Source: Lysobacter soyae (lineage in GTDB: Bacteria; Pseudomonadota; Gammaproteobacteria; Xanthomonadales; Xanthomonadaceae). From it: a DNA stretch of 64,000 nt. The notes below the pieces were generated by a model that saw nothing but the letters and a program-made list of their open reading frames with translations, did not search any database and was not told where the DNA came from. The position numbers and the translations under genes are program-made. Every line of letters begins with the position of its first letter. Within the stretch, counting starts at the first letter, position 1. Location of the stretch: contig NZ_CP080544.1 of assembly GCF_019551435.1 (NCBI RefSeq), positions 2,017,001 through 2,081,000 of the forward strand, read 5' to 3'. Positions 21,862 through 47,132 of this stretch are shown here, one piece after another.

Positions 21862-21893
21862 TATCGCACTGCGAGCTTGTCCAAGGCACTGCA

Positions 21894-21922
21894 AAAACCC
21901 GCGTATTTCGCGGGTTTTTTTA
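21894..21922 (+). terminator. Terminator after tRNA-Met
   Basis: The stem AAACCCGCG and its complement CGCGGGTTT enclose a TATTT loop and are followed by a run of T. It ends tRNA-Met transcription on the element side. A similar terminator is at the far end of the element. Confidence 0.85.
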
Positions 21923-21973
21923 TGCCCGCCCTCCAATACTCTCCGCATTCCTACATTGCTATCCAGAGATTCA

Positions 21974-22021
21974 GGGGGCATAGTTGGGGGCATATTCGGC
22001 AAGAAGAAACTCCATGCCCCC
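21974..22021. repeat. Left-end integrase-arm-like repeats
   Basis: GGGGGCATA occurs at 21974-21982 and 21986-21994 (12-bp spacing), and an inverted TGCCCCC copy at 22015-22021, just upstream of the integrase start. The same direct pair with the same spacing appears at 47027-47046. The likely role is binding of the integrase or excisionase arm domains. Confidence 0.75.
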
Positions 22022-22033
22022 ACGAGGTCCACT

Positions 22034-23254
22034 GTGCCTTTAAGCGACGCTTCCATTCGACAAGCCAAGTCTTCCGGGAAAGTGGTCCGCCTGTATGACT
22101 CCGGCGGCCTCTATCTCGAAGTGACACCCTCCGGATCGAAGCTTTGGCGTTGGAAGTTCCGCATTGCCGGTAAGGAGAGGAGGCTTGCTCTAGGCACCTA
22201 CCCCGCCACGTCACTCAAGGAAGCGCGCCAACGGCGTGACCAAGCCAAGGGGCAACTTGAAGCAGGGGCCGACCCCAGCGCCGCTAAACGTGCGGAAAAG
22301 CTTTGTAGCCAAGACCAAGCAGCCAATAGCTTCGAAAAGGTGGCGATAGAGTGGCTGCACGTTAAGAAACACGAATGGACAGAAAAGCAGTTCACCAAAG
22401 AACAGGGTCGGCTAAAGAAATATGCCTTTCCATACCTTGGTAATCGGCCGATCGCTGAGATAGGCGTTGCTGACGTAAGGGTTATGATCGAGCGACCGGC
22501 ACGAGCCGGCTTTCTTGAACAATCTCACCGGCTTCGCTTCCAGCTAAGCCGAATCTTCAAGTTTGCGATCGCGACTGAACGGGCTGAAAGGGATCCAGCG
22601 TCTGACCTAAGCGCTGTCCTCCCCTCGCGACGCAAACAGAGGCACCCCACAATTATTGAACCGGACAAAATCGCGGTGCTTCTCAGGGCGATTGACAGTT
22701 ACGAAGGAAGTGTCGCAGTAGCTGCAGCACTTAGGCTGGCGCCGATGTGGTTCTGCCGTCCTGGAGAGATCAGAATGGCTGAGTGGTCCCAGATAGAGCT
22801 GGAGGGCGATCAACCACAATACACGGTTCCGCCGATGAACCGGAAGCTTCGAAAGGCAGCGAAGGAAGCGAAAGAAACGCCTCCCCACGTCATTCCACTG
22901 AGTTTACAGGCGGTCGCTATTCTGCAAGAGTTGAAAACGTTCACCGGCCGAGGTCGTTTCGTTTTCCCAAGCGGGCGTGAACCCTCGCGCAACATGAGCG
23001 ATGGCGCAATCAATGCTGCGCTGGCCCGCCTTGGGTACAAGGGGTTGATAGTTGGACATGGCTTTCGACACATGGCGTCAACCCTCCTGCGAGAACAGGG
23101 TTGGTCGAGAGAGGCGGTGGAAGCTCAGCTTTCCCACGAGATCGGCGGGACGGAAGGTGTATACAACTTGGCAAAGTTCTTGCCAGAGCGAAGGCGAATG
23201 ATGCAGGCTTGGGCGGACTACTTAGACCAACTCAAAAAAGCTTCGACTACATGA
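22034..23254 (+). CDS. P4-type tyrosine integrase
   Basis: 406 aa from GTG 22034, with GAGG six bases before it; the ATG further upstream lies in repeats and gives an improbable leader. The N-terminal DUF4102-type arm domain PLSDASIRQAK leads to LALGTYPATSLKEARQRRD, then the core and catalytic domain. Catalytic residues are seen in CRPGEIRMAEW (Arg), GHGFRHMAST (His-x-x-Arg), QLSHE (His) and the C-terminal VYNLAKFLPERRRMMQAWADYL (Tyr). It integrates at the tRNA-Met 3' end. It overlaps the next gene by ATGA. Confidence 0.95.
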   Translation: MPLSDASIRQAKSSGKVVRLYDSGGLYLEVTPSGSKLWRWKFRIAGKERRLALGTYPATSLKEARQRRDQAKGQLEAGADPSAAKRAEKLCSQDQAANSFEKVAIEWLHVKKHEWTEKQFTKEQGRLKKYAFPYLGNRPIAEIGVADVRVMIERPARAGFLEQSHRLRFQLSRIFKFAIATERAERDPASDLSAVLPSRRKQRHPTIIEPDKIAVLLRAIDSYEGSVAVAAALRLAPMWFCRPGEIRMAEWSQIELEGDQPQYTVPPMNRKLRKAAKEAKETPPHVIPLSLQAVAILQELKTFTGRGRFVFPSGREPSRNMSDGAINAALARLGYKGLIVGHGFRHMASTLLREQGWSREAVEAQLSHEIGGTEGVYNLAKFLPERRRMMQAWADYLDQLKKASTT

Positions 23255-24228
23255 ACGATCGAGCGGACGGAATACCTAAAAACGAGCGCTCTACACCCAA
23301 GACAGCGAAAGCCGAGCAGGTCAGAAAAAAGCGTCTTCAGTTAATCGAGTTCGGTCTTTCGGAGTTCAGGCACCGGGTCAAGGTTACTGATATTGACCGT
23401 CCCATCACCTGTGCCGTATGCGATCGTTGCAAGCCCGTTCCACCTCTGTCGCAGAGTATCCACGGGCGTAATTTCTCAAAGCTGATTGATCGCCTAGAAC
23501 TGTTGTTTGAAAATGGAGCGGGTGAACCGGACGCCGTCAGGGATCTCTATATGGCTCCGTGGTTTGACGCCATGGACTACACGTGCACCTATAGAACTCT
23601 ATTAGGGACTTTCAATTCGATCATCTTCGCACTTTTCAGATTTGGGTACCCGCCGGAACAACTCCGGCATGTTTTCGACGAACTTTGGGCTGACCGGCTG
23701 TCTCTACCCAACTGGTTCGTAAGCACGATTGGAGTTGAAGACCCAGAAGAGAAACTTGAAGCGAGCCTTCGATTCTGGATAGATGCCGCAAGGAAATACG
23801 ACGAGGCGATAATGTCGCAGAAGCAGGTAGAGGTTGCGTGTGCGCCTCTCTCGGCATCCAACCTTTACTTGGGTTGGGCGGCTCCTCAACTTCTGTTGAC
23901 ACAATTAGGTCGAGCGGCTGCGCAGAAGCAGTTTGGCAAGGTCCATGAGGAACATGCATCGATAAAAGCTTGGGCTTTCAACGAATTGAATAAGTTTCAA
24001 GATCAATCTATGGACTCCGTCAAAGACCTAATCTTGAAGCTGACGGGACATAGGGGAGCGCCAATCCCAAAGTCGACGCCAAGTCCAGATGCCTTACGCA
24101 CCCTCGAGAATCTTCTGCAACGCTTTTACCGCGACGATCAACTCTTCACGACCCAAGTGGATCGGATCGTGAAGAGCAAACGCGGACGACCTCGCGTCCA
24201 AAGTAAAATCAAATCTCCTCCTGAATAA
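23251..24228 (+). CDS. Unknown protein coupled to the integrase, with Cys motif and AT-hook-like tail
   Basis: 325 aa; ATG 23251 overlaps the integrase stop, implying translational coupling. No known domain is recognised. The N-terminal part is charged with a PITCAVCDRCKP cysteine cluster, the middle is helical and rich in aromatic residues (RFGYPPEQLRHVFDELW), and the C-terminus ends in SKRGRPRVQSKIK, an AT-hook-like core. DNA binding is therefore possible. The gene could regulate or assist recombination, since it is co-transcribed with the integrase, but this is an inference. It ends in a 20-base overlap with the convergent Gp2-like gene. Confidence 0.8.
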   Translation: MNDRADGIPKNERSTPKTAKAEQVRKKRLQLIEFGLSEFRHRVKVTDIDRPITCAVCDRCKPVPPLSQSIHGRNFSKLIDRLELLFENGAGEPDAVRDLYMAPWFDAMDYTCTYRTLLGTFNSIIFALFRFGYPPEQLRHVFDELWADRLSLPNWFVSTIGVEDPEEKLEASLRFWIDAARKYDEAIMSQKQVEVACAPLSASNLYLGWAAPQLLLTQLGRAAAQKQFGKVHEEHASIKAWAFNELNKFQDQSMDSVKDLILKLTGHRGAPIPKSTPSPDALRTLENLLQRFYRDDQLFTTQVDRIVKSKRGRPRVQSKIKSPPE

Positions 24229-25291
24229 TCGGCAAGAGCAAGCGCGGTCTTCCGCGTTTTGAGGATCGCCCGCGAATCTGCCCTTTGCCGAACACGCGAC
24301 GAAGCCCTGGAATCTTCATGCGAACGTAGAGGTCCATCTTGGTCAGGTACATGCATACATCTTTGAGGCCCTCACGTAGCTCGGAATCCCTGTAATCGAT
24401 CATGCCGATCCCAAGTTTTCCTTTCGTTTCCAACGTCAGTTTGTCGGCGTTGCTTAACCAGTAGCTGGCACCAAAAGATGCAACTCTCTTCCACAGATCT
24501 CCCAAGGCATGACCTATGGTGTAATCCTCGCGTACAACATGGCCATTGAAGAACAGCAAGAGATGCATGTGGGGTCCCTTCAATACGCCCCACTCTTTTT
24601 TCCATGCGTAGCCAACCATTGCCGGATACTGCGCAACGAGCTGAGCCAGGAACCTCTTGAAGTCTACGTTTGCTTGCACCACTGGCAAACTTCCCGTGCT
24701 GGCTGGAGGGAAAGGGTCGGCAACATATCCAAGATCTAAGCGGATGACAAGTAGTCGTGCATGCCGTTCAAACAGTCGGTCGACGTACTTGCGCAGCCCA
24801 ACGTAGTTCTTGTGCGCAGCGCGTCGTTCGTTCCGCACGGCAGCTGTGTACCCCTCGTTCTTCGCGCGCGCACGCACTTCCATGATCCAAGCATTCATCG
24901 CCTCAACGTCCTGAACTCGAATTTCAGCCGGTCGGCGAACTGGCACTGTCGACACCGCCGATTCCCACAGCTCGAAATACTTGCTGAAGCTGTGGTGCGG
25001 AAAGCAAGCACGTACTTCTGAGGCATTCAAACTGTTGATCGCAACAACCAGATTCTTCAGCAGCGGCGTGGAACGGACGCGTGGTCCACGCGTGGTTTCG
25101 ACAACGGAGAATTGATAACCACCTCGCGCCTTTGCTAAGGAGTCGATGAGGTGGTCGCTTTCCAGCAAGATGCGAGGACAATTCATCTCTTTCGAGATGA
25201 TCCATCCATGGTCTAGTGGAACGCGCGTGTGGAGCCTCCATATTTTCAGAAGGCGCTTTTTATTCTTATTCATTTTCATTCGCATACGCAT
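24209..25291 (-). CDS. Inovirus Gp2-like protein, HUH replication/relaxase family
   Basis: About 360 aa taking ATG 25291; alternatives at 25285, 25279 and 25273 cannot be told apart, and the TTG at 25306 is less likely. HUH features are present in order: RLDLGY (motif 1), KGPHMHLLLFFNG (the His-x-His metal motif) and VCMYLTKMDLYVR (catalytic Tyr region). This matches the Gp2/YagK-YfjJ family found in inoviruses and P4-like satellites. It likely nicks the element origin. Its basic C-terminus SSKRGRPRLLL is also AT-hook-like. It converges on the gene after the integrase, and the upstream AlpA gene runs the same way. Confidence 0.82.
   Translation of the reverse strand: MRMRMKMNKNKKRLLKIWRLHTRVPLDHGWIISKEMNCPRILLESDHLIDSLAKARGGYQFSVVETTRGPRVRSTPLLKNLVVAINSLNASEVRACFPHHSFSKYFELWESAVSTVPVRRPAEIRVQDVEAMNAWIMEVRARAKNEGYTAAVRNERRAAHKNYVGLRKYVDRLFERHARLLVIRLDLGYVADPFPPASTGSLPVVQANVDFKRFLAQLVAQYPAMVGYAWKKEWGVLKGPHMHLLLFFNGHVVREDYTIGHALGDLWKRVASFGASYWLSNADKLTLETKGKLGIGMIDYRDSELREGLKDVCMYLTKMDLYVRMKIPGLRRVFGKGQIRGRSSKRGRPRLLLPIIQEEI
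24234..24260 (+). terminator. Short terminator between convergent genes
   Basis: CGCGG, loop TCTT, CCGCG, then TTTT (24243-24260) on the plus strand, inside the 3' coding end of the opposing gene. It could end the integrase-unknown gene transcript; the stem is only five base pairs. Confidence 0.45.
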
Positions 25292-25427: not shown

Positions 25428-25634
25428 TTAGTGCGCTAGGCACCCCCGGGCCATAAGCCAGCAGCGCAGTTCCGACGCCAAAAAGCCCACTGCGGTCTTA
25501 CCCAAGCGAATTGGCTTGGGAAACGTGGGGTCGTTGCGACGAAGCCAGTAGCCATGCGACTGGCTGATGCCCAAGTACTTGCACATGTCTTTCATGCGCA
25601 AGATCAAGTCATCTTCGAAGGTTTGCGGTAACAA
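25428..25634 (-). CDS. AlpA-family regulator/excisionase
   Basis: 68 aa taking TTG 25634, which is preceded by AAGAGGTGTTCC, a good ribosome site; the longer in-frame ATG at 25673 would add 13 unlikely residues. The sequence LRMKDMCKYLGISQSHGYWLRRN followed by FPKPIRLGKTAVGFLASELRCWL is the AlpA/MerR-like winged HTH. AlpA proteins activate integrase expression or act as excisionases in P4-like elements, fitting an integrase in the same element. The next gene downstream is the Gp2-like gene, about 137 bases away. Confidence 0.88.
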   Translation of the reverse strand: MLPQTFEDDLILRMKDMCKYLGISQSHGYWLRRNDPTFPKPIRLGKTAVGFLASELRCWLMARGCLAH

Positions 25635-25673
25635 GGAACACCTCTTTTCTGTTGGGTGTCCACACCATGCCAT

Positions 25674-26204: not shown

Positions 26205-26213
26205 TATTCCTGT

Positions 26214-26711
26214 CTAGACCCATCCCCGCGCGGCAAGCGATACCGCTTTCAAGCCACCCACTACGATGTGGTCAAGCAGCCGGATGTCCACAAGAGCGAG
26301 CGCCTGCTTTAGCCGGGAAGTCACCGCCCGATCAGCGGCTGAAGGTTCGAGATGGCCGGACGGATGGTTGTGTGCCACGATCACCCCGCCCGCGCCGAGG
26401 GCCAACCCTCGCCTGACAACCTCCCGCGCATGAACCTCTGCGCCGTCGATGGTGCCCAAGAACATTTCTTCGTGCGCGATGAGGCGATTACGCGTATCCA
26501 GGAAGGCAACAGCAAAGACCTCCCGTTGTAGGCCGGCCAGCTTGTCGATGAAGAATCGCTGGGACGTTGCCATGTCTGCAAACGCCATACCCTTCACGGC
26601 ATTCCTATCAACGACCGCGCGCGCTGCCTCAATGATTTGCGTTGAGTCTGCCGGCCGGTATCGTCCACTTTGAGTCCTAACGAACAGGGCCTCCTTGATT
26701 TGCTGCTCCAC
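26214..26711 (-). CDS. radC: RadC-like JAB-domain protein
   Basis: 165 aa from GTG 26711, preceded by GGAGAAG; this matches the usual ~165-aa mobile-element RadC and leaves room for the small gene upstream. A longer frame reaching 26870 would overlap that gene. The JAB/MPN metal motif is HNHPSGHLEPSAAD with an upstream Glu (EVHAREV) and SGxxxP spacing intact. Proteins of this group (RadC/YeeS) are common on plasmids and integrated elements; the biochemical role is unsettled. It follows the 38-aa gene in one leftward operon with the Gp3-like gene and yqaJ. Confidence 0.88.
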   Translation of the reverse strand: MEQQIKEALFVRTQSGRYRPADSTQIIEAARAVVDRNAVKGMAFADMATSQRFFIDKLAGLQREVFAVAFLDTRNRLIAHEEMFLGTIDGAEVHAREVVRRGLALGAGGVIVAHNHPSGHLEPSAADRAVTSRLKQALALVDIRLLDHIVVGGLKAVSLAARGWV

Positions 26712-26749
26712 TTGTCTTCTCCAATGCCTGTAGATGTTGAATTTGGATT

Positions 26750-26866
26750 TCAGTCTTGCGACCTGTCTAGTGATCGCTTGTACATTTGCCATTGCTTCGC
26801 CACGACCGTGGCCAACCCGCACGTAGCTAAAATGGCCACGACAATTCCGCCAATTGCCCTGTACAT
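26750..26866 (-). CDS. 38-aa single-pass membrane protein with strong ribosome site
   Basis: Reading from ATG 26866 gives 38 codons, ending TGA 26750. AAAGGAGG lies six bases ahead, the best Shine-Dalgarno site in the operon. The peptide MYRAIGGIVVAILATCGLAT forms one hydrophobic helix (residues ~4-22), followed by the basic tail KQWQMYKRSLDRSQD. It lies between the Gp3-like gene (20 bases upstream) and radC (38 bases downstream), so it is co-transcribed. Size and form recall small holin-like or membrane-anchoring proteins. No homology can be stated. Confidence 0.72.
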   Translation of the reverse strand: MYRAIGGIVVAILATCGLATVVAKQWQMYKRSLDRSQD

Positions 26867-26887
26867 ACACGGCCTCCTTTTGCTCCT

Positions 26888-27772
26888 TTATGGGCTGGCC
26901 AATTTCTTGCCAAGCCGCTCGCTAAGTGCCCCTGATGTAACCGACGTCTGGACCTGATGGGCGGCGCCGGGCTCTGGAAAGAACTCTTCGATAACCGAAG
27001 GAACGTCGTCCTCGGCCTCCTCAAAGTCGCCGTTGGCGAAGCCCCGCTTTGCGGCCAGATCCAGCGCGTCTTGGTCATAACCACGCTCTTTCCGTTGAAG
27101 ATCCGTCGCCCTTGCCTGTTCGATGGCCGCTTCCAGCGTCAGTCCACTTCTGACCGTCAGGTCGACGTAGTAGATCGTGGATCGGAAACTCATTGCCGTG
27201 CTCTTTCCTCGCAATCTGAGTTCCAAAGGCATTGTGGCCAAGCGCCCGCCGGATACGGCATCGAAGTACTGAAGACGGGCTGCGAGAGTGCGCACCGTGT
27301 TGAACGAAGTGGTTCTAAGGACAAAGGTTCCGAATGCGTCCTCGACCTCGTCGCCAATGACCACAGCAAAGCGGGCATAGACTTTGCAGTTGCCCTCCGC
27401 GAATGGACATGTGTCGGGTCCGACACATGGCAACGTCTCAACCCGTTCCTTTCCTGCCCTGCGGCAAGACTCGCCGTTCCCTACACATAACGGCCGGCCT
27501 GTTCCGCGATCGAACAATGAGTAGGTGCTCCGAAAATTCAACGTCGGATCATTGAAGAGCAGGCGGATCGGCAGCGACCGGAGCTTACCGCCACTTTCTC
27601 TCCGAAGTGCTTCATCAAGGGGATGAAGGATCCATCCCTCTCGATTCTGAACCTGCGTGGTAATGGTGAACTGATCGTCCTTTTCTGGAAGGCGCTTGCC
27701 GTTACGTTCAATGACCCGCCCAATAGAAATCCGCCCGACAACAGGCGGTGTGATTGCCAAACCTTTCAGCAT
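26888..27772 (-). CDS. Gp3-like recombination directionality factor-type protein
   Basis: 294 aa from ATG 27772, preceded by AGAGGG; it overlaps the yqaJ end by seven bases. The sequence GRISIGRVIERNGKRLPEKD, the PIRLLFNDPTLNFRSTY stretch, the two cysteine pairs (PLCVGNGESCRR and CVGPDTCPFAEGNCK) and RFAVVIGDEVEDAFGTFVLRT closely follow the order of features in phiC31 Gp3-like proteins (often annotated hydrolase or metal-binding protein). Gp3 is a serine-integrase directionality factor, but this element has a tyrosine integrase, so the real task may differ, for example zinc-bound DNA or protein binding. Assignment is by motif order and not by search. Confidence 0.68.
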   Translation of the reverse strand: MLKGLAITPPVVGRISIGRVIERNGKRLPEKDDQFTITTQVQNREGWILHPLDEALRRESGGKLRSLPIRLLFNDPTLNFRSTYSLFDRGTGRPLCVGNGESCRRAGKERVETLPCVGPDTCPFAEGNCKVYARFAVVIGDEVEDAFGTFVLRTTSFNTVRTLAARLQYFDAVSGGRLATMPLELRLRGKSTAMSFRSTIYYVDLTVRSGLTLEAAIEQARATDLQRKERGYDQDALDLAAKRGFANGDFEEAEDDVPSVIEEFFPEPGAAHQVQTSVTSGALSERLGKKLASP

Positions 27773-28758
27773 GTGGAATCCCTCTTTGGATGATTGGAAT
27801 CCCGAAGCAGCACAAATCGGCGTGCCCCAGGGCGAATGACGGTGTATCTGGATGTAATGTCGGGGTGGTCGACAGCCAGTCGTTTGGTATCCAGACTTGT
27901 GCAGTCTTTTGAGCGTTTGAACGACACTTCGCCGTCTGCAAATACCGCTCGAGACGCGTCGCCCATGGCCTGTTGAATCTGTTGCTTCAGCTGCTCGGCA
28001 GCCGCTTCCTTCTCTTGTAGTTCGTCCCTGAGATTCGCCAGTGAAGTAAAGGCGTTGCACAGGGCGGCGTCCTCGCTGAAGTCAACCGTCGTGCTCTTGC
28101 CAACATAAAGCTGACGCAATGCCTGACCAGCCGACTCACTGCCATCTGCTGGCGGGGGCGTGTCGGTCTCCACATAGCGCCAGAATTGGGTTTCTAAAAC
28201 GATCAGACGTGCGATCACGTCCTCGTCGCGCCTGATGCGGTGAGTCTCCAACCGCTGCCCGCACAGCAACACCGCCACGTCCGCCGCCCCCCTGCCAGTC
28301 ACGGCGAGCTGGTGCTGTACTTGCAACTGGACATGTTCGGGCACGCCATCTTTCCAGAGCCGTGAACCGAACTCACCGGCGGTCTTGCATTCCAAGACCT
28401 GTGCGCCCGTTGTCCCAACAATCTCGCGATCAATGTTGGCGAGCATGTAAGGAAATATGGGGTGCTGGAGAACAGCATTCACCCGTCGGACTTTGTTCCC
28501 AGTGCGCTCCATATACGCTGAAGCGACGAGCGGTTCCAATCGCGTACCCCAGTAGCGCGGATCGGACGTGTCGGGGTCTGCCTTGTGAGCGGCGCGACCG
28601 GTCTTCTCCATCCAGAGTTCAAGGGGACTCTTGTAGGGACACATACCGACCGCTGCAGCCGCGTCCGAGCTACCGATGCCACGGCGTCTGATCCCCAGCC
28701 ATTCACTCCGCGCCATTTCAGTCGTGCTGACCAGTCTGAGCGCCTTCATCTTCTTCAT
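27766..28758 (-). CDS. YqaJ-type viral recombinase/exonuclease
   Basis: 330 aa. Features of the lambda-exonuclease-like PD-(D/E)XK family are present: RRRGIGSSDAAAAVGMCPYKSP, WGTRLEPLVA, ANIDREIVG, then LECKTA (catalytic E-x-K) and VQLQVQHQLAVTG. Such enzymes make 3' single-strand ends for annealing recombination. A separate annealing protein is not obvious, and the neighbouring Gp3-like gene could serve another role. GGAG precedes the ATG. The C-terminal third (residues ~235-330) has a coiled region and a domain that is not recognised. Confidence 0.9.
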   Translation of the reverse strand: MKKMKALRLVSTTEMARSEWLGIRRRGIGSSDAAAAVGMCPYKSPLELWMEKTGRAAHKADPDTSDPRYWGTRLEPLVASAYMERTGNKVRRVNAVLQHPIFPYMLANIDREIVGTTGAQVLECKTAGEFGSRLWKDGVPEHVQLQVQHQLAVTGRGAADVAVLLCGQRLETHRIRRDEDVIARLIVLETQFWRYVETDTPPPADGSESAGQALRQLYVGKSTTVDFSEDAALCNAFTSLANLRDELQEKEAAAEQLKQQIQQAMGDASRAVFADGEVSFKRSKDCTSLDTKRLAVDHPDITSRYTVIRPGARRFVLLRDSNHPKRDSTC

Positions 28759-29276: not shown

Positions 29277-30233
29277 TCACGCCACCAGTTTCATCACTTC
29301 GTCCCACGCGCGCTGCTTTATCTGCGCACCTTGGCCAAACCACGCCGCCTCTCGGCGGTGATCGGCAGACCGCGCGCGCCGGTGAAAATCGACAAACTCA
29401 GTCACACTGTTGAGCAAGCCCCACGCCGTACCACGACTTGATGCGAGCAACGCGCCCTTGCCGCCACCCTCGTAAATTGCACGCACGTTGGCGATGGCTT
29501 GTTCATTGGCCACAGGGGCGGCGATATCTTGAGCCTGGTAAGTCAGTACGCGTCGCAGCAACCCTTCGACCGAATCCGGATCAACCGGACATTCACACAA
29601 GGCTTTCATGCGTGACACGAAAGGTTCCCAGGACGACACAGCGATGCCGAGTTGACGCTTGACCACCTCGGGATTGAACTTCGAACGATGCGACACCTTG
29701 ATAGAACCGTTGGAATCACCCAAGGCGATCTGCAAGGTGTTGTTGCATACGACGCGCACTGAGGTAAATTGCGCCGTCGTGGCGAGCGACCCGTCGCAAG
29801 CAGTAGCCAGAAGCAAATAGCCATCGACCTTGTCCCTGCCCTTGAGTGTGACTGACTGCCCAGTACGTGCCAGCGCCCAGAACTTGCGGCCTTGGCGAAG
29901 CACTCCGGCCGTCTCCAACTCGAAGCCGCCCACTTCGGTCAGATCTCGATAGAACTCCAGCACTTCGCTGGGCTGGACGACCTTGTAGCGATTCGACACG
30001 ACGGCCAACGGAGCCTTGGTATCCGAGCGGTACAAAACTTTGTTTTCCGGGAAGGCATGAATTGCGCCAATGTTGCCATTGCCGGAAATGAATCGAACTT
30101 CGGATTCCTCGATCCTCCAGTCCATTCCCGCTTGCCTTTTCCAGTCATCAATAGACTGTTGCGGGGCCAGTTTGTTGCCCAAGCCATGCCACGGACGGTC
30201 ACCCGTGTACGCCATAGATTCGACCAAATGCAT
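29277..30233 (-). CDS. DUF932 protein
   Basis: 318 aa. The sequence DRPWHGLGNKL near residue 13, followed by VLYRSDTKAPLAVVSNRYKVVQP and RVVCNNTLQIALGDSNGSIKVSH, marks the DUF932/phage-plasmid-like family. These proteins are widespread on phages, plasmids and integrative elements without a defined function; some act near recombination genes. GAGGAA lies about six bases before ATG 30233. A 35-aa gene lies just upstream on the same strand. Confidence 0.9.
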   Translation of the reverse strand: MHLVESMAYTGDRPWHGLGNKLAPQQSIDDWKRQAGMDWRIEESEVRFISGNGNIGAIHAFPENKVLYRSDTKAPLAVVSNRYKVVQPSEVLEFYRDLTEVGGFELETAGVLRQGRKFWALARTGQSVTLKGRDKVDGYLLLATACDGSLATTAQFTSVRVVCNNTLQIALGDSNGSIKVSHRSKFNPEVVKRQLGIAVSSWEPFVSRMKALCECPVDPDSVEGLLRRVLTYQAQDIAAPVANEQAIANVRAIYEGGGKGALLASSRGTAWGLLNSVTEFVDFHRRARSADHRREAAWFGQGAQIKQRAWDEVMKLVA

Positions 30234-31193: not shown

Positions 31194-33467
31194 ATGTCAG
31201 AAAAGAGCTATACACCAGAGCAGATTAGGGTTATTGAGCATGCGGGTCGCCATGCTGTCGTCGCGGCCGTAGCGGGTTCGGGGAAAACAGAGACCTTAGT
31301 CGGTCGAGTGCGCCATCTACTCCGCGAGCACAACCCTGAGCAAATCGCCGTTGTGATGTTCAATCGTGATGCTAGGGAGTCGTTCCAGAACCGTTTTGAA
31401 AAAGCGGCGCGTTCAAAGCCTCCCGAGATTCGTACGTTTAACTCGATGGGCAATAAGATCGTCAAACGGTTCGTAGAGATTGGATTGCTTCCAGACGCAC
31501 AAATTATCGACAAGGACTACCGCCGCACTAAGATTGCCAAGGACGTCTTCACGCACGTATTTAAATCACTCAACGCTGATGATCAAGTTCCCGATAAGGA
31601 TCTGATCGATTCGTTCCTTCAGTTCATTCTTCTGGTCAAGTCCGACGTACGCTCAGCCGAAGATGTCTTCGAAGCAGGCAAATACGCGAAGGCGGCAGCT
31701 GGATTCCCGCAGGCCTTCCACCTGTACGAGAAGGAACGCGCGCGCGCAAAAATCAGGTTTTTCGAAGACCAGATCTATGACCCTGTGAAACTGATGCTGC
31801 GTAAGCCTCAGATTCAAAGCTACGTATCCGACAAGGTCGATCACCTCATAGTCGACGAAGCCCAAGACATGAACGGGATCCAGATCGCGCTACTTCGAAT
31901 TCTTGCCGGTACGCGCGCCAGCGTCATGCTCGTAGGCGATGAAGACCAGGCGATTTACGACTGGAGAGGCGCAAAACCGGACTATCTGATTCGGGGCTTT
32001 GAAGCCGACTTCCCAGATGCCACGCGCTACACCCTTCCCCATACGTTTCGATTCGGCCATACGCTTTCGTTGGCAGCCAGCCATCTCATTACGAGAAACG
32101 CAAACAGAAACGCGAAGATTAGTGTCTCTGCTGAAGGCACTCCGAGAACTCGTATTCACTGCGTTGGTCTGTCACTGGGCCTGACGGGGCTTGGTGAGCA
32201 CGTTCAATCCGTACTCTCGGAAGGAACGCCTCCAGACGATGTCGCGATTCTCGTTCGCACTTACAACATGAGCGTTTCTATCGAGCTAGAACTACACCAA
32301 CTCGGCATTCCCTACTTCGTGTACGGCCGTCCGCCGCTTACTCGGATACCGGAGATCAGCGCTTTGGTGGGGGTCTTACAGCTAGCGAGCGGCCGATGGA
32401 AGACCATGAGTGCTGATGAGGTCCATTTCATCATCAGAAATCTCCTTCAGAGGCCGGCCCTGTACCTCGATCGAGTCGCGTCCCAGCAGGTCGTCGAACA
32501 GGTTATGGCAAGGCCAGAGAGTATCTCGGACGCCATCAGATCGGTGATTACAGAAAAGACCCAGAAGTTTCACGCTGACCAAATCAGGGACCGTGCCGAT
32601 TTGTTGGAGATCATCGCCACGACTACGGACCCAGATGAAAAGGTGATTGATGTCCTCAATCGTTATCTTCAGGGGACGGACTTTGAAAAGTCCATCGAGA
32701 AACAGTCGCCAACGGCCGAGTCTGCAGAGGCAATCTTGGCAAACGTTGCTGCTTTCAAGTTGATAGCAACCAAGCATGAAGGGGCGATTGATTCGTTTCT
32801 CGATGAAATCGACCCTTTGATCGACTCGTCGCAAACGGAACCGCCAGATCACCCGCATGTTTGGATTGGTTCAATCCATCGTGCCAAGGGCGCGCAATGG
32901 CCGGTGGTCTTCGTACCGGGGTTGGCCACCCGCGTATTCCCTCGTGACGATCTGACTGAAGAGGATTTGGAAGCAGAGAGACGCCTTTTCTACGTCGCCT
33001 CTACTCGCTCAGTTGACACATTGTTCTTAGCACATCCGGCAGATGACAATTTCTCGTCAATAGCCAACGATATTGAATGCAAAGATGAACGTGCGTTTGG
33101 CAGCGGCGTGTCACGTTTCCTTTGGGAGATGGACTTAGCCGTGGCTCGACATGCGGGCGAAGCGCTTGAGAACGGCGGCCCCTTCATTCCGCATGAAGTC
33201 GAACGCCCCGGTATCGCAAACCAGTATTTCTCTCGACACGATGTCTCTCGTGACTGGGCGTATCGCAGGAAGCCCAGAACGCATAGAAAGCCGCCCACTG
33301 GTGCGGAAGGAACGACCTCACTTCCGGCCGGGACCCGCGTCAAACACCCTGTTTTTGGCACAGGTGTCGTGGACAGGTGGGTCGACGCAAAGGTGGTTCG
33401 AGTGAACTTTGATAGCGGCGACTCGAGAATGTTGGTCGTCTCGTTGGCGGGACTAGTCAAGCAGTAA
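31194..33467 (+). CDS. SF1 UvrD/Rep-type DNA helicase
   Basis: 757 aa from ATG 31194. Motif I is AVAGSGKTETLVGRV, II is HLIVDEAQDMN, III is GDEDQAIYDWRGA, then later IHRAKGAQWPVVFVPGL (V) and RLFYVASTRSVDTLF (VI). The C-terminus (GTRVKHPVFGTGVVDRWVD...VNFDSG) resembles the UvrD tudor-like domain that contacts RNA polymerase. It probably unwinds element DNA for replication or helps recombination. It is not in an operon with the cargo genes that follow after ~450 bases. Confidence 0.93.
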   Translation: MSEKSYTPEQIRVIEHAGRHAVVAAVAGSGKTETLVGRVRHLLREHNPEQIAVVMFNRDARESFQNRFEKAARSKPPEIRTFNSMGNKIVKRFVEIGLLPDAQIIDKDYRRTKIAKDVFTHVFKSLNADDQVPDKDLIDSFLQFILLVKSDVRSAEDVFEAGKYAKAAAGFPQAFHLYEKERARAKIRFFEDQIYDPVKLMLRKPQIQSYVSDKVDHLIVDEAQDMNGIQIALLRILAGTRASVMLVGDEDQAIYDWRGAKPDYLIRGFEADFPDATRYTLPHTFRFGHTLSLAASHLITRNANRNAKISVSAEGTPRTRIHCVGLSLGLTGLGEHVQSVLSEGTPPDDVAILVRTYNMSVSIELELHQLGIPYFVYGRPPLTRIPEISALVGVLQLASGRWKTMSADEVHFIIRNLLQRPALYLDRVASQQVVEQVMARPESISDAIRSVITEKTQKFHADQIRDRADLLEIIATTTDPDEKVIDVLNRYLQGTDFEKSIEKQSPTAESAEAILANVAAFKLIATKHEGAIDSFLDEIDPLIDSSQTEPPDHPHVWIGSIHRAKGAQWPVVFVPGLATRVFPRDDLTEEDLEAERRLFYVASTRSVDTLFLAHPADDNFSSIANDIECKDERAFGSGVSRFLWEMDLAVARHAGEALENGGPFIPHEVERPGIANQYFSRHDVSRDWAYRRKPRTHRKPPTGAEGTTSLPAGTRVKHPVFGTGVVDRWVDAKVVRVNFDSGDSRMLVVSLAGLVKQ

Positions 33468-34355: not shown

Positions 34356-35629
34356 ATGCACATGCGTATCGCGGCGTTTGCCGCGTGCCTTGCGGCATTT
34401 CTGGCGTGTATGCCAGCGATGGCCGCTGACCGTTTGACCCTGGACGATGCGATCGGTCGCGTCGAACAAGCCCACCCAGATCTGCGCCTCATCGATGCCA
34501 AGCGCGACGCCCTCGCGGCCGGCGTTGATCAGGCCTCCTTGCGCCCCCCACTTGTACTCGGCGCGACGGTTGAGAACGTCATGGGCACCGACGACCGCCG
34601 TTTCTTCGATAGCGCCGAAGCCACGGTGACGCTGGGCTCGGTATTCGAGCGAGGCGGCAAGCTGGAGGCGCGACGCACGCTGGCGCAATCGCGGATCGAC
34701 GCCTTGGCTGTCGAACGCGAGTCAAAACGTCTTGATTTGCTGGCCGAAGTAGCGCGTCGCTATCTGGCGGTTGTGGCAGCGCAACGTCAGCGTGAGGTGG
34801 CGTCGCAAGACATTGAGCAGCGCCGACGCACGGTTGCCGGTGCGCGTCACCGTTTCACGGCTGGCGCCTCACCGCAGTCGGTGGTGTTCGCGGCGGAAGC
34901 GGCGCTGTCGCGGGCCGAGCTTGAACGTGCACGTGCGAAGCAACGCGAACAGAGCGCCCGCCAGCATCTGGCCGCGTTGTGGGGCGAGCGCGAGCCGCAG
35001 TTCACCGTGGCGAGCGGCAATCCTTACGCGCTACCCACGCTGGATGCCTTCACGCAGTTGTCTGCCTGGTTGAATCGCACACCGGAGATCGCCCAATTCG
35101 CGGGCGAACGCCGTATCCGCGAAGCACGTCTGCAGTTGGCCCGTAGCCAGTCCACGCCTGACTGGAGCTGGGAGGTAGGCGCACGGCGTTTCCGCGAGGG
35201 CAACGACGCCGGGCTGCTGGCGAGCGTCTCCATCCCGCTCGGTAGCCGCGCCCGCGCACAGCCCGAGATCCGAGCGGCGGAAGCGGAGCTGGCGATGTTG
35301 GAGGTCGAACGCGAATCCCGCGACCTGAGCCTGTATTCCACCCTTGCCGACGCACATGGTCGCTACCTCAGCGCCCAGTTGGAAGTGCGGCTGCTGGGGC
35401 GGGAGGTCATCCCCAAGCTCGGCCAGGCCGAGAAGGCCGCCGAGCGTGCTTATCGCGCAGGCGCGATCAGCTATCTCGAATGGGCGCAGCTTCAGTCCGA
35501 ACGCACGCTTGCGCGCAAACAACAACTTGAAGCCGCTCTGGAAGCGCAACGTGCGCTGATCGAAATCCAGCGGCTCACCGGCCAGCCGTTCGTTGACGGC
35601 ATGGCCATCAATGAACAAGGGGAAGACCA

Positions 35630-35633
<4 letters not shown>
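34356..35633 (+). CDS. czcC: CzcC-type outer-membrane channel (TolC family)
   Basis: 425 aa with a signal peptide (residues 1-~24). Two homologous halves of the outer-membrane efflux protein fold are seen: an A-helix beginning LTLDDAIGRVEQAHPDLRLIDAKRDALAAGVDQASLRPP, and a second set of heptad-rich helices around EVARRYLAVVAAQRQREVASQDIEQRR and EKAAERAYRAGAISYLEW. It forms the exit duct of the heavy-metal RND pump. Its stop overlaps the czcB start (ATGA). Confidence 0.92.
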
Positions 35634-40734
<5,101 letters not shown>

Positions 40735-40746: not shown

Positions 40747-41643
40747 ATGGGCGCAGGACATGATCATGGTGGTGGCGAGATTAGGCATGAAAAGCCGCTT
40801 TGGATCGCACTTGGGCTGACGTCTGCATTTCTAATCGCAGAGGTCATTGGTGGATTGATGACCAACAGTTTGGCGCTGCTCTCGGATGCTGCCCACATGG
40901 GCACCGATGTGCTTGCGCTGGCGATCTCGCTTTTTGCTGTTCGCCTGAGCAGGCGCCCACCCGATGCCAAGCGAACCTATGGCTATGCCCGCATGGAAGC
41001 CATTGGTGCATTGATCAATGGAGCACTGCTGTTTCTCGTAGCGGGCTACATCCTGTGGGAGGCAATCGGTCGCTTCAGTCAACCGCCGGAGGTCGCCTCC
41101 ACCGGCATGCTGGTGGTGGCCACGTTTGGCCTGATCGTGAATCTAATCTCGATGCGCCTGCTGAAGGCCGGTTCGGGCGAGAGCCTCAACGTGAAAGGCG
41201 CCTACCTGGAAGTCTGGGCCGACATGCTCGGTTCGGTAGGTGTGATTGCGGGCGCCATCCTGATCAAGCTGACCGGGTGGACGATTGCCGACCCGATCAT
41301 CGCCGTGCTCATCGGCCTCTGGGTGCTGCCACGCACATGGATTCTGATGCGGCAGGCCGGCAACATCTTGATGCAGGGCGTTCCTGATGGCCTCAACCTA
41401 GAAGAGGTTCGCAAGGCGTTAGCCGAGTTCCCGGGCGTCACCGAGGTGCACGACCTGCACGCGTGGGCGCTGGGGTCGAAAGAGGCAGTGCTGACCGCGC
41501 ATGTGGTGGGGGATGACGCGAAAGCCTCAGGCGAACAGCTGCGACTTAGCTTGATCGCCATGCTGGATGAGCGCTTCGGTATAGAGCATGCGACGTTGCA
41601 GATCGAGGCAGTGCCGTGTATCGAACATGAAGTGCATTCCTGA
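40747..41643 (+). CDS. czcD: CDF zinc/cadmium exporter CzcD
   Basis: 298 aa. The His/Gly-rich N-terminus (MGAGHDHGGGEIRHEK) and six-helix CDF core are present: the metal site AHMGTDVLALAISL and ADMLGSVGVIAGAILIK carry the conserved Asp/His residues. The C-terminal cytoplasmic domain (residues ~210-298) carries LHAWALGS and VHSEH-type metal residues. AGGAGG lies just before the ATG. It exports zinc or cadmium from the cytoplasm, feeding the periplasmic Czc pump. Confidence 0.94.
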   Translation: MGAGHDHGGGEIRHEKPLWIALGLTSAFLIAEVIGGLMTNSLALLSDAAHMGTDVLALAISLFAVRLSRRPPDAKRTYGYARMEAIGALINGALLFLVAGYILWEAIGRFSQPPEVASTGMLVVATFGLIVNLISMRLLKAGSGESLNVKGAYLEVWADMLGSVGVIAGAILIKLTGWTIADPIIAVLIGLWVLPRTWILMRQAGNILMQGVPDGLNLEEVRKALAEFPGVTEVHDLHAWALGSKEAVLTAHVVGDDAKASGEQLRLSLIAMLDERFGIEHATLQIEAVPCIEHEVHS

Positions 41644-41976: not shown

Positions 41977-42063
41977 ATGAGGGAATCTTGCGTATCTGAT
42001 TTCAACCCGCGGCGCCTTAAAGAAATGATCATCCATTCAATTGCAGCAGGTTCGACTAAGTGA
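41977..42063 (+). CDS. 28-aa leader frame overlapping the restriction enzyme start
   Basis: ATG 41977 begins MRESCVSDFNPRRLKEMIIH and ends SIAAGSTK, then TGA 42061-42063. This overlaps the GTG (42060-42062) of the Type ISP gene as GTGA. The arrangement would couple translation of the large enzyme to this peptide. A GGGCAACGGGC stretch precedes the ATG but is a poor ribosome site, so the frame is possible and not proven. Confidence 0.45.
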   Translation: MRESCVSDFNPRRLKEMIIHSIAAGSTK

Positions 42064-45000
42064 CCTCATTCTCCAAGCTCCTCGACACCTTCCGAATCGC
42101 AGCAGTCAGCGAGCGCGAAAAGGGCACGTACTTTGAAGAACTGATCCTTGCCTATCTGCAGAACGAGGCGACCTACAAGGACCTCTACCGCCGGGTCTGG
42201 ACTTGGGCGGAATGGGCACCGGCAAACGGCTTCACCGCCAAGGACGACGGCATTGATCTAGTGGCTGAAGTCGCAGGGTCCGGCGAGATCCACGCCATCC
42301 AGTGCAAGTTTTACGACCCCGGCTACAAGCTACAGAAGAAGGACATTGATAGTTTCTTCACCGCTTCCGGCCGCAAGCCTTTCGCCCACCGTGTCATTGT
42401 CAGCAGCACGGACCACTGGTCGGAGCATGCCGAAAACGCGCTTGTCGACCAGCAGCCACCGGTCAGCAAGATCACGCTGCATGACCTGGAGGAAAGCCAG
42501 GTCGATTGGGCGAAATATCAGCCGAACGCCAAGGTCAGCCTCAAGCCGAAAAAGACCCTTCGCCCGCATCAGGCTTCTGCGCTCACGGCAGTGAGCGCCG
42601 GGCTGCAGGCTGCAGATCGCGGCAAGCTGATCATGGCCTGCGGCACCGGTAAGACCTTTACAAGCCTCAAGATCGCGGAGCAGATGGCCGGCCCCGGCAA
42701 GCGTGTCTTGTTCCTCGTGCCAAGCTTGTCGTTGCTTTCCCAGACCCTGACGGAGTGGACACAGGAAAGTCAGACCCCCTTGCACAGCTTCGCCGTGTGT
42801 TCCGACAGCGATGTGGGCAAGAAGCGCGGCCGCAAGGAAGACGATGCGGTCCAGACGCTCGCCCACGAACTGCGTTTCCCGGCCACCACCGATGCCAAAG
42901 TTCTGGCGAAACACATGGCGGCACGCCAAGACGACGAACACATGACCGTCGTCTTCAGCACCTACCACTCAATTGAAACGATTCACCACGCACAGCATCA
43001 GCACGGTTTGGGCGAGTTCGATCTGATTGTCTGCGATGAGGCGCACCGCACCACAGGCGCAACGTTTGAAGGGGACGATGAATCCGCCTTCGTGCGCGTG
43101 CACGACGCCGAGTACATCCGTGCGGCAAAGCGCTTGTATATGACGGCCACCCCGCGCATCTACGGCAATGAAGCCAAGGCCGTGGCCGAGCGCGATAACG
43201 TCGCGCTGTACTCGATGGACAACGACGCGTGGTTCGGCAAACAACTGTTCGTCATCACCTTCTCAGAAGCGGTTAAACGCGGTTTGCTGGTGGATTACAA
43301 AGTGATTGTGCTGGCGGTGGAAGAAGCGCACATCAATCGCAGGCTGCAACACTTGCTGAAGGACGAAAACAACACGCTTCGCGTGGATGACGCTGCAAAA
43401 ATAGTTGGCTGCTGGAAAGCACTGGCGAAGCTCGGCATACACGAAGACGGCAACGAGACCGCGGAGCCGATGAAGCGCGCGGTCGCATTCTGTCAAGTAA
43501 TTGAACCGGGCAAAGGCGGCAAGGCCCACAAGGTCAGCTCCAAGGAAATCGCCGGAATGTTCCAAGCCGTCGTCGAGGCCTACCAAGACGCAGAGGACAT
43601 CGAGGACGCCGCGCGCCTGAGGTGCGAAGCCGAGCACGTGGACGGGGGCATGAACGCAGGGGAAAAAGAAGCCAAGCTTGATTGGCTCAAAGCACCGACA
43701 CCGCCGGAGACGTGCCGTGTGTTGTCGAACGTGCGCTGCCTCTCTGAAGGCGTGGATGTGCCCGCGCTGGACGCCGTACTCTTCCTGACCCCACGCAACT
43801 CGCAGGTGGATGTGGTCCAGTCCGTGGGTCGGGTCATGCGCAACGCACCGGGCAAGCGGCGGGGCTATGTGGTGCTTCCGGTGGTCATACCCGCAGGCGT
43901 GGAAGCGCACGAGGCGTTGAACGACAACAAGACATACGCTGTGGTTTGGCAAGTGTTGCAGGCGCTGCGTTCACACGACGACCGCTTCGACGCGATGGTC
44001 AACAAGCTGGATCTGGTGGGCCCCGACCGCAGCAAGATGGAAGTGGTGGCCATTGCCGACACCGTGCAGCGCAAAACCGCGCGCTTGGTGGATGGCAACG
44101 CGCGCAAGGCCGCAAAAGCCAAAGGAACGTACGGCCTCGGAGAGAAGTCCGAACTCTACGGGCCGGTGCCCGATCAAGCCCAGCTCGAATTCGAGATCGG
44201 CGAAGTCGAGCGCGCGCTCTACGCCAAGGTGGTCGAGAAATGCGGCAACCGCCACCACTGGGAAGACTGGGCCAACGACATTGCCAAGATCGCCCAGACC
44301 CATATTGACCGCATCCAAGCCATGCTGGCTGATCCGGCCAATACTCACGCCCGCGCGGCATTCGAAGCGTTTGCCGCAGAGTTGCGCGACGACCTCAATG
44401 ACAAAGTCACTGACACCGAGATCATCGAAATGCTGGCGCAGCATTTAATTACCAAGCCGGTGTTCGACGCCCTGTTTGCCGACTACAGTTTCGCCAGCCA
44501 CAACCCGATGTCGCGTGCGATGCAGCAGGTGTTGGACGTGTTGGAAGGCGAACACCTGAACAAGGAGACGGGCAGCCTTCAGGCCTTTTACGACAGCGTG
44601 AAGCTGCGCGCCGAAGGCATCGACAACGCCGCCGGAAAGCAGAAGATCGTGGTCGAGCTGTACGACAAATTCTTCCGCAATGCCTTCCCGAGGATGACCG
44701 AGCGCCTCGGTATCGTCTACACGCCGGTGGAGGTGGTGGACTTCATCCTGCACAGCGTCAATCACCTTCTGCAAACAGAGTTCGGGCAAACGCTGGGCAG
44801 CAAGGGCGTGCACATCCTCGACCCGTTCACCGGCACCGGCACCTTCATCACACGGGTCCTGCAATCCGGGCTGATCCAACCGGATGAACTGGCGCACAAG
44901 TATCGGCACGAGTTGCATGCCAATGAACTGGTGCTACTGGCCTACTACATTGCCGCCATCAACATTGAGGCCGCATACCACGACATTGCAGGGGGAGACT

Positions 45001-46994
45001 ACGTACCCTTCGAAGGCATCTTGTTGACCGACACTTTCCAGATGTACGAGAAGGACGATCTAGTCAATGCCCTACTGGTGGACAACAGTGCGCGGCGCAA
45101 GCGGCAGAAGCGGTTGGATATCCGGGTGATCGTTGGTAATCCGCCTTATTCAGTGGGGCAAGGCGATGCCAATGCCAACAATGCCAACGTGGCTTATCCG
45201 GCGCTGGACACCCGAATCCGCGACACTTATGGCAAGCGTTCCGTGGCAACAAACAAGAATGCGCTTTACGACAGTTATATCCGCGCCATTCGCTGGGCCA
45301 GTGATCGCGTGGGTAGCGCTGGCATCATCGGATTTGTGACCAATGCCGGTTGGCTGGAAGCCAATACCACCGACGGACTGCGCCAGTGTCTGGCCGAGGA
45401 GTTCTCGGATATCTATGTGTTCCATTTGCGTGGAAACGCCCGCACCAGCGGTGAAACGCGGCGAAAGGAAAAAGACAACGTGTTCGGCGTTGGCAGTCGT
45501 GCGCCCATTGCCGTTTCACTGCTTGTGAAGAATCCGAATGCGACTACGCGTGGCCGCATCATTTTGCACGACATCGGGGATTATCTGAGCCGGGAAGACA
45601 AGCTGGAGAAGATAGCAGCATTTGGGGACGTGGGCGGCATTCCCGAGCAGGATTGGCAGCGCATCACCCCCGACGCGCACGGAGATTGGCTGAAACAGCG
45701 CGATGACAGCTTTGAGCGCTTCATCGCGATGGGCAACAAGGACGATAAGACGAGCCTTGCATTGTTCGGCAACTATTCCAACGGCGTGAAAACGCAACGC
45801 GATGCTTGGGCTTACAACCAGAGCAAATCCAAGCTCGCGACCCACATGTCCAAGATGATTGGGTTCTACAACGCTGAAGTGGCGCGATTCGATGCTGCGC
45901 ATCCCGGATTGGACAATAAGGCGCGACAGGCGCGCGTCGACGGGTTCATCGACAGTGATCCCACACGCATCAGTTGGACGCGCGCACTCAAGCAGGACCT
46001 GGGCAAGAATCGCACCTATGCGTTCTTGGCCGAATGCATCGTGCCCAGCCTGTATCGGCCCTTCACCAAACAGTGGCTGTACTTCAATCGACGCTTCAAT
46101 GAAATGGTCTATCAAATGCCGCGCATCTACCCGGATGCCAAAGCGGATAACCTCGTGATCGGAATTTCTGCAGCTGGCGAGAAAGTTGGCTTTAGTGCAT
46201 TGATCTCCGAGATCGTGCCAAGCCTGCACTTGGTGGACATCGAGGGCTCGCAATGCTTCCCTCTCTACCTCTACGAGGAAGTCGACAAGCATTCCGTTGA
46301 CGCTCTATTCACCGACCAGTCCAGCGACCGCACGCGTCGCCGCGAGGCTGTCACCGACGCCGGCCTCGCCCATTTCCAGTCTGCGTATCCGAGCGAGTCA
46401 ATCAGCAAGGAAGACCTGTTTTATTACATTTACGGCCTCCTGCATTCGCCTGATTACCGCGCGCGTTACGCCGACAACCTGAGCAAGGAACTTCCTCGCA
46501 TCCCCCGTGTGCGTACGGCTCACGATTTCTGGGCGTTTAGCAACGCCGGGCGCGCTTTGGCCGCGCTGCATCTGAACTACGAGACCGTTGACCCCTACCC
46601 GCTCACCTTCGACACCCAAGCTCCCCTCACCGACGCCGACTACCGCGTCGAGAAAATGAAATTCGCCAAGAAGAAAGACCCCGAGACTGGTAAGTCGGTT
46701 AACGACCGCAGCACCGTGATCTACAACTCCAAGATCACCCTGCGCGACATCCCGGAAGCGGCCTGGGGCTACATTGTCAACGGCAAGGCCGCGCTCGACT
46801 GGGTGATGGAACGGCAATCCGTGCGCGTGGACAAGGACAGCGGCATCGTCAACGACGCCAACGACTGGGCCAACGAGACCATGGGCAACCCGAAGTACCC
46901 GTTGGAGCTATTCTGCCGTGTAGTGACAGTCAGCCTAGAAACGCAGAAAATCGTCAGCGCCCTTCCCGGTTTGGACATTCGTGAGGACGGTTGA
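42060..46994 (+). CDS. Type ISP restriction-modification enzyme (single polypeptide)
   Basis: 1644 aa from GTG 42060. Domain order: Mrr-like nuclease (D66 in DDGIDLVAEV and Q81-C-K83 in AIQCKF), a linker, SF2 helicase (ACGTGKT at 191-197, LIVCDEAHRTTG later, and QSVGRVMRNAPGKRRG), coupler, N6-adenine methyltransferase with DPFTGTGTF (921-929) and NPPY at 1027-1030, then a C-terminal target recognition region. This matches the LlaGI/LlaBIII Type ISP group (about 1570-1580 aa), being slightly longer. It would cleave unmodified DNA by translocation collisions and methylate one strand. No partner gene is needed. Confidence 0.92.
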   Translation: MTSFSKLLDTFRIAAVSEREKGTYFEELILAYLQNEATYKDLYRRVWTWAEWAPANGFTAKDDGIDLVAEVAGSGEIHAIQCKFYDPGYKLQKKDIDSFFTASGRKPFAHRVIVSSTDHWSEHAENALVDQQPPVSKITLHDLEESQVDWAKYQPNAKVSLKPKKTLRPHQASALTAVSAGLQAADRGKLIMACGTGKTFTSLKIAEQMAGPGKRVLFLVPSLSLLSQTLTEWTQESQTPLHSFAVCSDSDVGKKRGRKEDDAVQTLAHELRFPATTDAKVLAKHMAARQDDEHMTVVFSTYHSIETIHHAQHQHGLGEFDLIVCDEAHRTTGATFEGDDESAFVRVHDAEYIRAAKRLYMTATPRIYGNEAKAVAERDNVALYSMDNDAWFGKQLFVITFSEAVKRGLLVDYKVIVLAVEEAHINRRLQHLLKDENNTLRVDDAAKIVGCWKALAKLGIHEDGNETAEPMKRAVAFCQVIEPGKGGKAHKVSSKEIAGMFQAVVEAYQDAEDIEDAARLRCEAEHVDGGMNAGEKEAKLDWLKAPTPPETCRVLSNVRCLSEGVDVPALDAVLFLTPRNSQVDVVQSVGRVMRNAPGKRRGYVVLPVVIPAGVEAHEALNDNKTYAVVWQVLQALRSHDDRFDAMVNKLDLVGPDRSKMEVVAIADTVQRKTARLVDGNARKAAKAKGTYGLGEKSELYGPVPDQAQLEFEIGEVERALYAKVVEKCGNRHHWEDWANDIAKIAQTHIDRIQAMLADPANTHARAAFEAFAAELRDDLNDKVTDTEIIEMLAQHLITKPVFDALFADYSFASHNPMSRAMQQVLDVLEGEHLNKETGSLQAFYDSVKLRAEGIDNAAGKQKIVVELYDKFFRNAFPRMTERLGIVYTPVEVVDFILHSVNHLLQTEFGQTLGSKGVHILDPFTGTGTFITRVLQSGLIQPDELAHKYRHELHANELVLLAYYIAAINIEAAYHDIAGGDYVPFEGILLTDTFQMYEKDDLVNALLVDNSARRKRQKRLDIRVIVGNPPYSVGQGDANANNANVAYPALDTRIRDTYGKRSVATNKNALYDSYIRAIRWASDRVGSAGIIGFVTNAGWLEANTTDGLRQCLAEEFSDIYVFHLRGNARTSGETRRKEKDNVFGVGSRAPIAVSLLVKNPNATTRGRIILHDIGDYLSREDKLEKIAAFGDVGGIPEQDWQRITPDAHGDWLKQRDDSFERFIAMGNKDDKTSLALFGNYSNGVKTQRDAWAYNQSKSKLATHMSKMIGFYNAEVARFDAAHPGLDNKARQARVDGFIDSDPTRISWTRALKQDLGKNRTYAFLAECIVPSLYRPFTKQWLYFNRRFNEMVYQMPRIYPDAKADNLVIGISAAGEKVGFSALISEIVPSLHLVDIEGSQCFPLYLYEEVDKHSVDALFTDQSSDRTRRREAVTDAGLAHFQSAYPSESISKEDLFYYIYGLLHSPDYRARYADNLSKELPRIPRVRTAHDFWAFSNAGRALAALHLNYETVDPYPLTFDTQAPLTDADYRVEKMKFAKKKDPETGKSVNDRSTVIYNSKITLRDIPEAAWGYIVNGKAALDWVMERQSVRVDKDSGIVNDANDWANETMGNPKYPLELFCRVVTVSLETQKIVSALPGLDIREDG

Positions 46995-47026
46995 ATGTGG
47001 CGGCTAGAACGGCCAGTTACCGAATT

Positions 47027-47046
47027 GGGGGCATAAATGGGGGCAC
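47027..47046. repeat. Right-end integrase-arm-like repeats
   Basis: GGGGGCATA at 47027-47035 and GGGGGCAC at 47039-47046, a pair with the same 12-bp spacing as at the left end. It lies 33 bases after the Type ISP stop codon and just inside the probable attachment site. Confidence 0.72.
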
Positions 47047-47099
47047 GCCAATAATTCAGTACGCCTAAGGTACTTTGAAATCAAAGAGTTATTCTTTCG

Positions 47100-47132
47100 G
47101 TTAGAGAGTACCCATACCACCAAGTCGAACTT
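47100..47132. other. Degenerate copy of the tRNA-Met 3' end (possible attR)
   Basis: GGTTAGAGAGTACCCATACC and then ACCAAGTCG resembles the tRNA-Met 3' end (GGTTCGAGTCCACCCATAGC then CACCATATCG) with one gap and several mismatches; ACCCATA and CCACCA match exactly. It sits close to the right arm-type repeats. The match is too weak for a fresh integration product. Confidence 0.45.

Follow-up and report, generated by a model that had tools for sequence, protein, structure and literature searches.

We analysed a 64-kb window (the whole stretch of DNA under study, bases 2,017,001-2,081,000 of a 2.135-Mb genome, G000, that consists of a single contig) in which a tRNA-Met gene is followed by genes for integration, DNA processing, metal efflux and restriction. 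In window positions, the features of the locus are:

21785..21861, + strand, tRNA-Met (CAT), the attachment gene
21848..21854, + strand, left core ACCCATA, inside the 3' end of the tRNA
21974..21992, + strand, left arm-type motif GGGGGCATANNTGGGGGCA
22034..23254, + strand, tyrosine integrase, P4/IntY type (Pfam; PHROG phrog_1; NCBIfam NF007246)
23251..24228, + strand, 325-aa ORF directly after int; congener G007 has an ORF 25% identical to it in the corresponding position
24209..25273, - strand, YagK/YfjJ (inovirus Gp2-like) HUH-type protein (Pfam PF11726)
25428..25673, - strand, AlpA regulator/excisionase (Pfam PF05930)
26214..26870, - strand, RadC-like JAB protein (Pfam PF04002)
26888..27772, - strand, Gp3-like protein, a relative of the phiC31 excision factor (Pfam PF18897), its start overlapping the yqaJ stop
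27766..28758, - strand, YqaJ, lambda-exonuclease family (Pfam PF09588; NCBIfam TIGR03033)
29277..30233, - strand, DUF932/TIGR03299 protein (Pfam; NCBIfam)
31194..33467, + strand, UvrD/PcrA-type helicase (Pfam; PHROG)
33880..34299, + strand, ORF in the czcI position, no family match
34356..35633, + strand, czcC-type outer-membrane efflux protein (OEP/CzcC)
35630..36892, + strand, czcB-type adaptor (HlyD/CzcB)
36873..40091, + strand, czcA-type RND pump (TIGR00914, 1572.6 bits)
40084..40734, + strand, short CDF-type cation transporter without a ZT_dimer domain
40747..41643, + strand, czcD-type CDF transporter
42060..46994, + strand, type ISP restriction-modification enzyme with all domains
47027..47045, + strand, right arm-type motif GGGGGCATANNTGGGGGCA
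47110..47122, + strand, right core ACCCATA (47110-47116) followed by CCACCA, the tRNA 3' end minus one base
47157..47184, + strand, terminator-like repeat resembling the repeats 3' of the same tRNA in empty congeners

We are highly confident that the block from 21848 to 47122 is an integrated mobile island of 25.26 kb at tRNA-Met, its length from core to core being 25,262 bp. The final 14 bases of the tRNA-Met gene start with ACCCATA, the core found again at the right end, and the 19-base arm motif is present in exactly two exact copies in the 2.135-Mb genome, one at each end of the island, with a chance expectation in the window of 0.00. The right attachment site is imperfect, the tRNA end being one base short there, and there is no long exact repeat; we count both against the account of a mobile island. 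When G+C content was calculated over 2-kb windows, values of ~52-59% were obtained for the mobility genes, 61-65% for the czc genes and 57-60% for the ISP gene; because the flanks lie at ~57-62%, composition alone is only partly informative. A 6S RNA is located at window positions 7086-7268, outside the island.

An earlier, sequence-only reading of this DNA had listed a tRNA-Met-linked integrase, AlpA, a Gp2-like HUH protein, YqaJ, RadC, DUF932 and a helicase, all of which were borne out by Pfam and the tRNA call, and had overlooked one backbone gene, that of the Gp3-like protein (PF18897). Its statement that transfer and capsid genes are lacking also held, since Pfam detected no capsid, terminase, relaxase or conjugation family among 23 scanned ORFs, seven of them small; the PHROG matches of the island ORFs fell only into the integration, DNA metabolism and unknown categories. 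Pfam revealed no HTH protein besides AlpA and no RecT, Erf or Rad52 family was present among the scanned ORFs, and the 325-aa ORF at 23251-24228 matched nothing in Pfam, PHROG, NCBIfam or plasmid proteins. Residues HMH 235-237 and Y309xxK312 of the YagK/YfjJ protein, which we take to be HUH-type motifs, are kept in the aligned G007 copy.

With respect to the cargo, that reading had proposed a full czcICBA-CDF-czcD system; czcC, czcB, czcA and two CDF proteins could be assigned, while czcI could not, as the ORF in its position, which resembles a small exported His/Cys-rich protein, had no match to a Pfam, NCBIfam or PHROG family or to a plasmid protein. A start at 40084, within the end of czcA, is the probable one for the first of the two CDF genes. 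The type ISP assignment was confirmed: the enzyme is a single chain of 1644 aa composed of an Mrr-type nuclease, an SF2 ATPase, a coupler, an N6 methylase and an ISP specificity domain, and residues 1-1642 match PADLOC PDLC03597 end to end with 2351 bits. This is the same full domain series as in the type ISP restriction enzymes, no difference being apparent, and among the matches listed the island enzyme is 64-72% identical over its full length to plasmid-borne enzymes.

The distribution of the island was addressed by comparing the tRNA-Met locus of 16 congeners (G001-G016). The site is empty in nine of these (G002, G005, G008, G009, G010, G012, G014, G015, and G016), where queD follows tRNA-Met within ~0.65 kb, the G008 contig beginning inside the tRNA. 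Two further congeners, G003 and G013, carry ~7 kb of other DNA between tRNA-Met and queD, without any match to an island protein, and G011 has ~15 kb at the locus with integrase remnants. The ~7-kb inserts (L024 in G013 and L027 in G003) are alike just after the tRNA. A related integrase, 55-78% identical, is present at the same tRNA in the other four (G001, G004, G006, and G007). In G004 and G006, where contig ends interrupt the locus, a core resembling (C)ACCCATA marks either end, accompanied by paired arm repeats of their own. In G001 a stretch of ~120 kb runs from tRNA-Met to a tRNA-like fragment beside queD (G001:C1 ~2406013-2526215; L030, L040-L045); near 2448.6 kb this block contains a further core with its pair of arms, and it is probably composed of two islands in tandem.

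The closest congener by DNA is G007 (flank DNA 76-82%). Its island shares the integrase (78% identity), YfjJ (59%), AlpA (47%), RadC (61%), Gp3-like protein (72%) and YqaJ (65%), retains DUF932 as a remnant only, and carries as cargo HsdM, HsdS and HsdR (type I R-M), an HNH protein and IetA-IetS (IetAS). On the same backbone whole cargo sets have thus been exchanged between congeners, metal efflux and type ISP in one and type I R-M and IetAS in the other. The backbone proteins of G000 and G007 are 47-78% identical, as against 83-95% for five flanking proteins, which indicates that the backbone has diverged beyond its flanks. The earlier reading had named, as the outcome that would speak against it, divergence like that of housekeeping genes with no genome lacking the block; what we found were empty sites, swapped cargo and a backbone more diverged than the flanks, which argues against a resident block. 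The satellite-like element proposed there is accordingly supported as a mobile, non-self-transmissible island by the empty sites, the swapped cargo in the closest congener and the backbone divergence. Counted against the island account is that neither G007 nor G001 was grouped with G000 with support when YqaJ, DUF932 and the Gp3-like protein were each placed in a tree. A weak fork unites G000 with G001 in the tree of DUF932; in both trees that include it, a Lysobacterales genome assembled from a metagenome is the fully supported partner of G001.

Two other stretches at this locus may be mentioned. To the right of the island, window positions 47190-52800, whose reading frames include a radical-SAM-like one, form a stretch that is missing from the locus in G007 and the empty congeners, and parts of this stretch match other chromosome sites in G001, G003, and G006. 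In G007 (G007:C1, L021 4920-19997) the upstream gene is separated from tRNA-Met by ~15 kb, which lie on the side of the tRNA opposite to the island.

Islands with a comparable backbone are known. Capsid- or terminase-bearing satellites (P4, PICI, cfPICI) are defined by packaging or capsid genes, and this class was ruled out, there being no such Pfam family in the 23 ORFs scanned. Closer in content are the Pseudomonas islands I23, I44, and I55, which, in the accessible part of their description, lie at tmRNA with IntY, AlpA, YqaJ and a Gp2-like protein, RadC being present in many of the wider island set and, according to the authors, in these three too (PMC12595487). The same portions of text give them a defence cargo and no transfer genes (PMC12595487; PNAS 2025). 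The G000 island has in common with them, as there described, a tyrosine integrase beside a tRNA or tmRNA gene, AlpA, YqaJ, RadC, the Gp2-like protein, defence cargo without transfer genes, and a size in the 20-70 kb range (PMC12595487). It differs from that description in its target (tRNA-Met and not tmRNA), in its repeat (a short imperfect core and not 14 bp), in its cargo of type ISP and czc genes, and in that the AlpA and Gp2-like genes lie beside int and not at the far end as in I55, a point which we count against the account (PMC12595487). The broader island kind also has a further HTH-containing protein, and that Pfam showed none here besides AlpA is likewise counted against it. Because the target is tRNA-Met, the island falls outside the strict I55 family, which integrates into tmRNA, and membership in that family was ruled out. 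The Discussion of that report, in the part available, counts islands located at tRNA genes among this broad class too (PMC12595487), and to this broader, already known IntY/AlpA/YqaJ/RadC/Gp2-like kind, as far as it is described there, the G000 island belongs: its integrase lies beside a tRNA, AlpA, YqaJ, RadC and the Gp2-like protein are all present, the defence cargo comes without transfer genes, and the 7-bp core with CCACCA (minus one base) and the paired arm motifs provide the direct repeat.

That the recombination gene set is unusual, as had been held, is not supported, given the published core of IntY, AlpA, YqaJ, RadC and Gp2-like protein in the I55-type islands as far as described (PMC12595487) and the occurrence of Int, AlpA, YfjJ, RadC and DUF932 in the E. 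coli cryptic prophage CP4-57. The latter, located at tmRNA, has proteins 32% (Int), 36% (AlpA), 25% (YfjJ), 45% (RadC) and 24% (DUF932) identical to those of G000, and a different cargo. Neither YqaJ nor the Gp3-like protein has a match in the 24 kb of it that were compared, which reach to within ~1 kb of its end. In a survey of 149 genomes of the bacterial family, integrase relatives at a cut-off of E <= 1e-60 were found in 54; 30 loci were fetched, our own included, and in 29 of them a tRNA or tmRNA gene lies within 1.5 kb of the integrase (tmRNA in eight, tRNA-Met in six). An island kind of which one member was presented in 2025 as a jumbo-phage traveller, in the text available (PMC12595487), is hereby extended to tRNA-Met in another bacterial family.

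How such an island may move can be proposed largely by analogy. The integrase, aided by AlpA, would recombine the short core to release a free circle, and rolling-circle copying may follow from a nick made in this circle by the Gp2-like HUH protein. DNA ends would be processed by the DUF932-YqaJ-Gp3 block, and the Czc efflux and type ISP restriction would pay for carriage of the island. A passing phage might then package the element and carry it out of the cell, on the model of I55 as described in the accessible text, where excision was IntY-dependent, transduction was by jumbo phage JPTI55 and the host was protected by a type II R-M enzyme (PMC12595487). We consider this account of a mobile island as a whole, with its helper left unnamed, to be rather probable, and give the phage-mediated route, which by analogy is the likeliest, about an even chance.

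The HUH-type YagK/YfjJ protein could instead act as a relaxase-like nickase, with a conjugative plasmid or ICE supplying the channel, and it fits such a mobilizable element that of the 39 plasmid records with Gp3-like relatives 11 were typed conjugative and six mobilizable. We judge this route unlikely, as no Pfam relaxase family is present among the 23 ORFs scanned, PF03432, the one relaxase family searched genome-wide, is absent from G000 and was found in just one of six genomes (G011), and I55, in the available part of its description, did not transfer by mating (PMC12595487). The imperfect right attachment site and the missing long repeat would also suit an island stranded by loss of its capacity to excise, and decay does occur in the congener group, given that G007 keeps only a remnant of DUF932; with all main frames of the G000 island open and full length, and both GGGGGCATANNTGGGGGCA motifs intact, we find this quite improbable. 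The mobile island with its helper left unnamed is the reading that we prefer.

AlpA is the usual partner of P4/IntY-type integrases, and its presence as the alternative partner of the tyrosine integrase bears on the role of the Gp3-like protein, whose Pfam name would make it the excision factor of the island. PF18897 matches both this protein and phiC31 gp3, and the phiC31 RDF tops its fold matches. However, phiC31 gp3 works on a large serine integrase, and the large serine recombinase family PF07508 was found in none of three genomes searched, being absent from the whole of G000 and also from G001 and G007; nor did tblastn with the phiC31 integrase return anything at E <= 0.001 in 99 loci with Gp3-like relatives. 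Unlike phiC31 gp3, the Gp3-like protein sits beside an exonuclease gene, in a host without a large serine recombinase, and phiC31 gp3 as a tblastn query had no match in the window or the 99 loci. A role as excision factor of this island is thus very doubtful.

The Gp3-like relatives were surveyed with a two-sequence profile, which identified at least 513 in genome contigs, 19 viral contigs and 39 plasmid records, and none in the phage collection; the nearest named relatives among the matches listed are from Lysobacter and kin. Ninety-nine loci were examined, with 80 of the at least 513 genome-contig relatives kept and a few contigs duplicated (e.g., L112 and L129). All 99 contain YqaJ, 97 contain DUF932 and 52 contain RadC. 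On one strand DUF932 is followed by YqaJ and then by the Gp3-like gene; DUF932 is missing from L091 and L100, the latter ending at a contig edge. The distance between the YqaJ and Gp3-like genes, measured in 97 loci, is within 150 bp in 87, and in 14 the two genes overlap. As Gp3-like peptides served as seed for the search, this co-travel holds for the Gp3-like protein and does not give the frequency of solo YqaJ or DUF932, and CP4-57 has DUF932 alone. DUF932-YqaJ-Gp3, which 97 of the 99 loci have as a fixed block, is likely a shared DNA-processing core, and there are hints that the conserved core of the island is an uncharacterised DNA-recombination gene set. In the available part of their description, the YqaJ-RecT/SSB phage modules likewise pair an exonuclease of the YqaJ type with small partners in recombination (PMC8093625); here the place of RecT, Erf or Rad52 is taken by DUF932 and the Gp3-like protein.

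The Gp3-like protein shares with the phiC31 excision factor both its Pfam family and its fold, and below the phiC31 RDF as top match the structures that it resembles less closely are for the most part those of proteins that bind ssDNA. Among such proteins the gp32-like ones are marked by an OB fold with a zinc site. One might speculate, tentatively and at less than even chances, that islands and plasmids have in this block a recombination machine of three parts, hitherto undescribed, in which YqaJ would resect ends, Gp3 as a zinc-bearing gp32-like SSB would coat the single strand and DUF932 would anneal; phiC31 gp3 would then be an SSB of phage origin that was taken over to switch a serine integrase. 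Were this so, the machine may make concatemers or joined ends for helper-phage packaging in such islands, and the widely used phiC31 excision factor would have a testable origin. Finally, type ISP relatives are present in eight of the 99 Gp3-like loci, and in five of the eight the identity is at least 64%. In loci L056, L060, L063, L066, and L130 the type ISP genes, 64-76% identical to that of the island, lie near the DUF932-YqaJ-Gp3 block, and the pairing of ISP gene and block therefore recurs.
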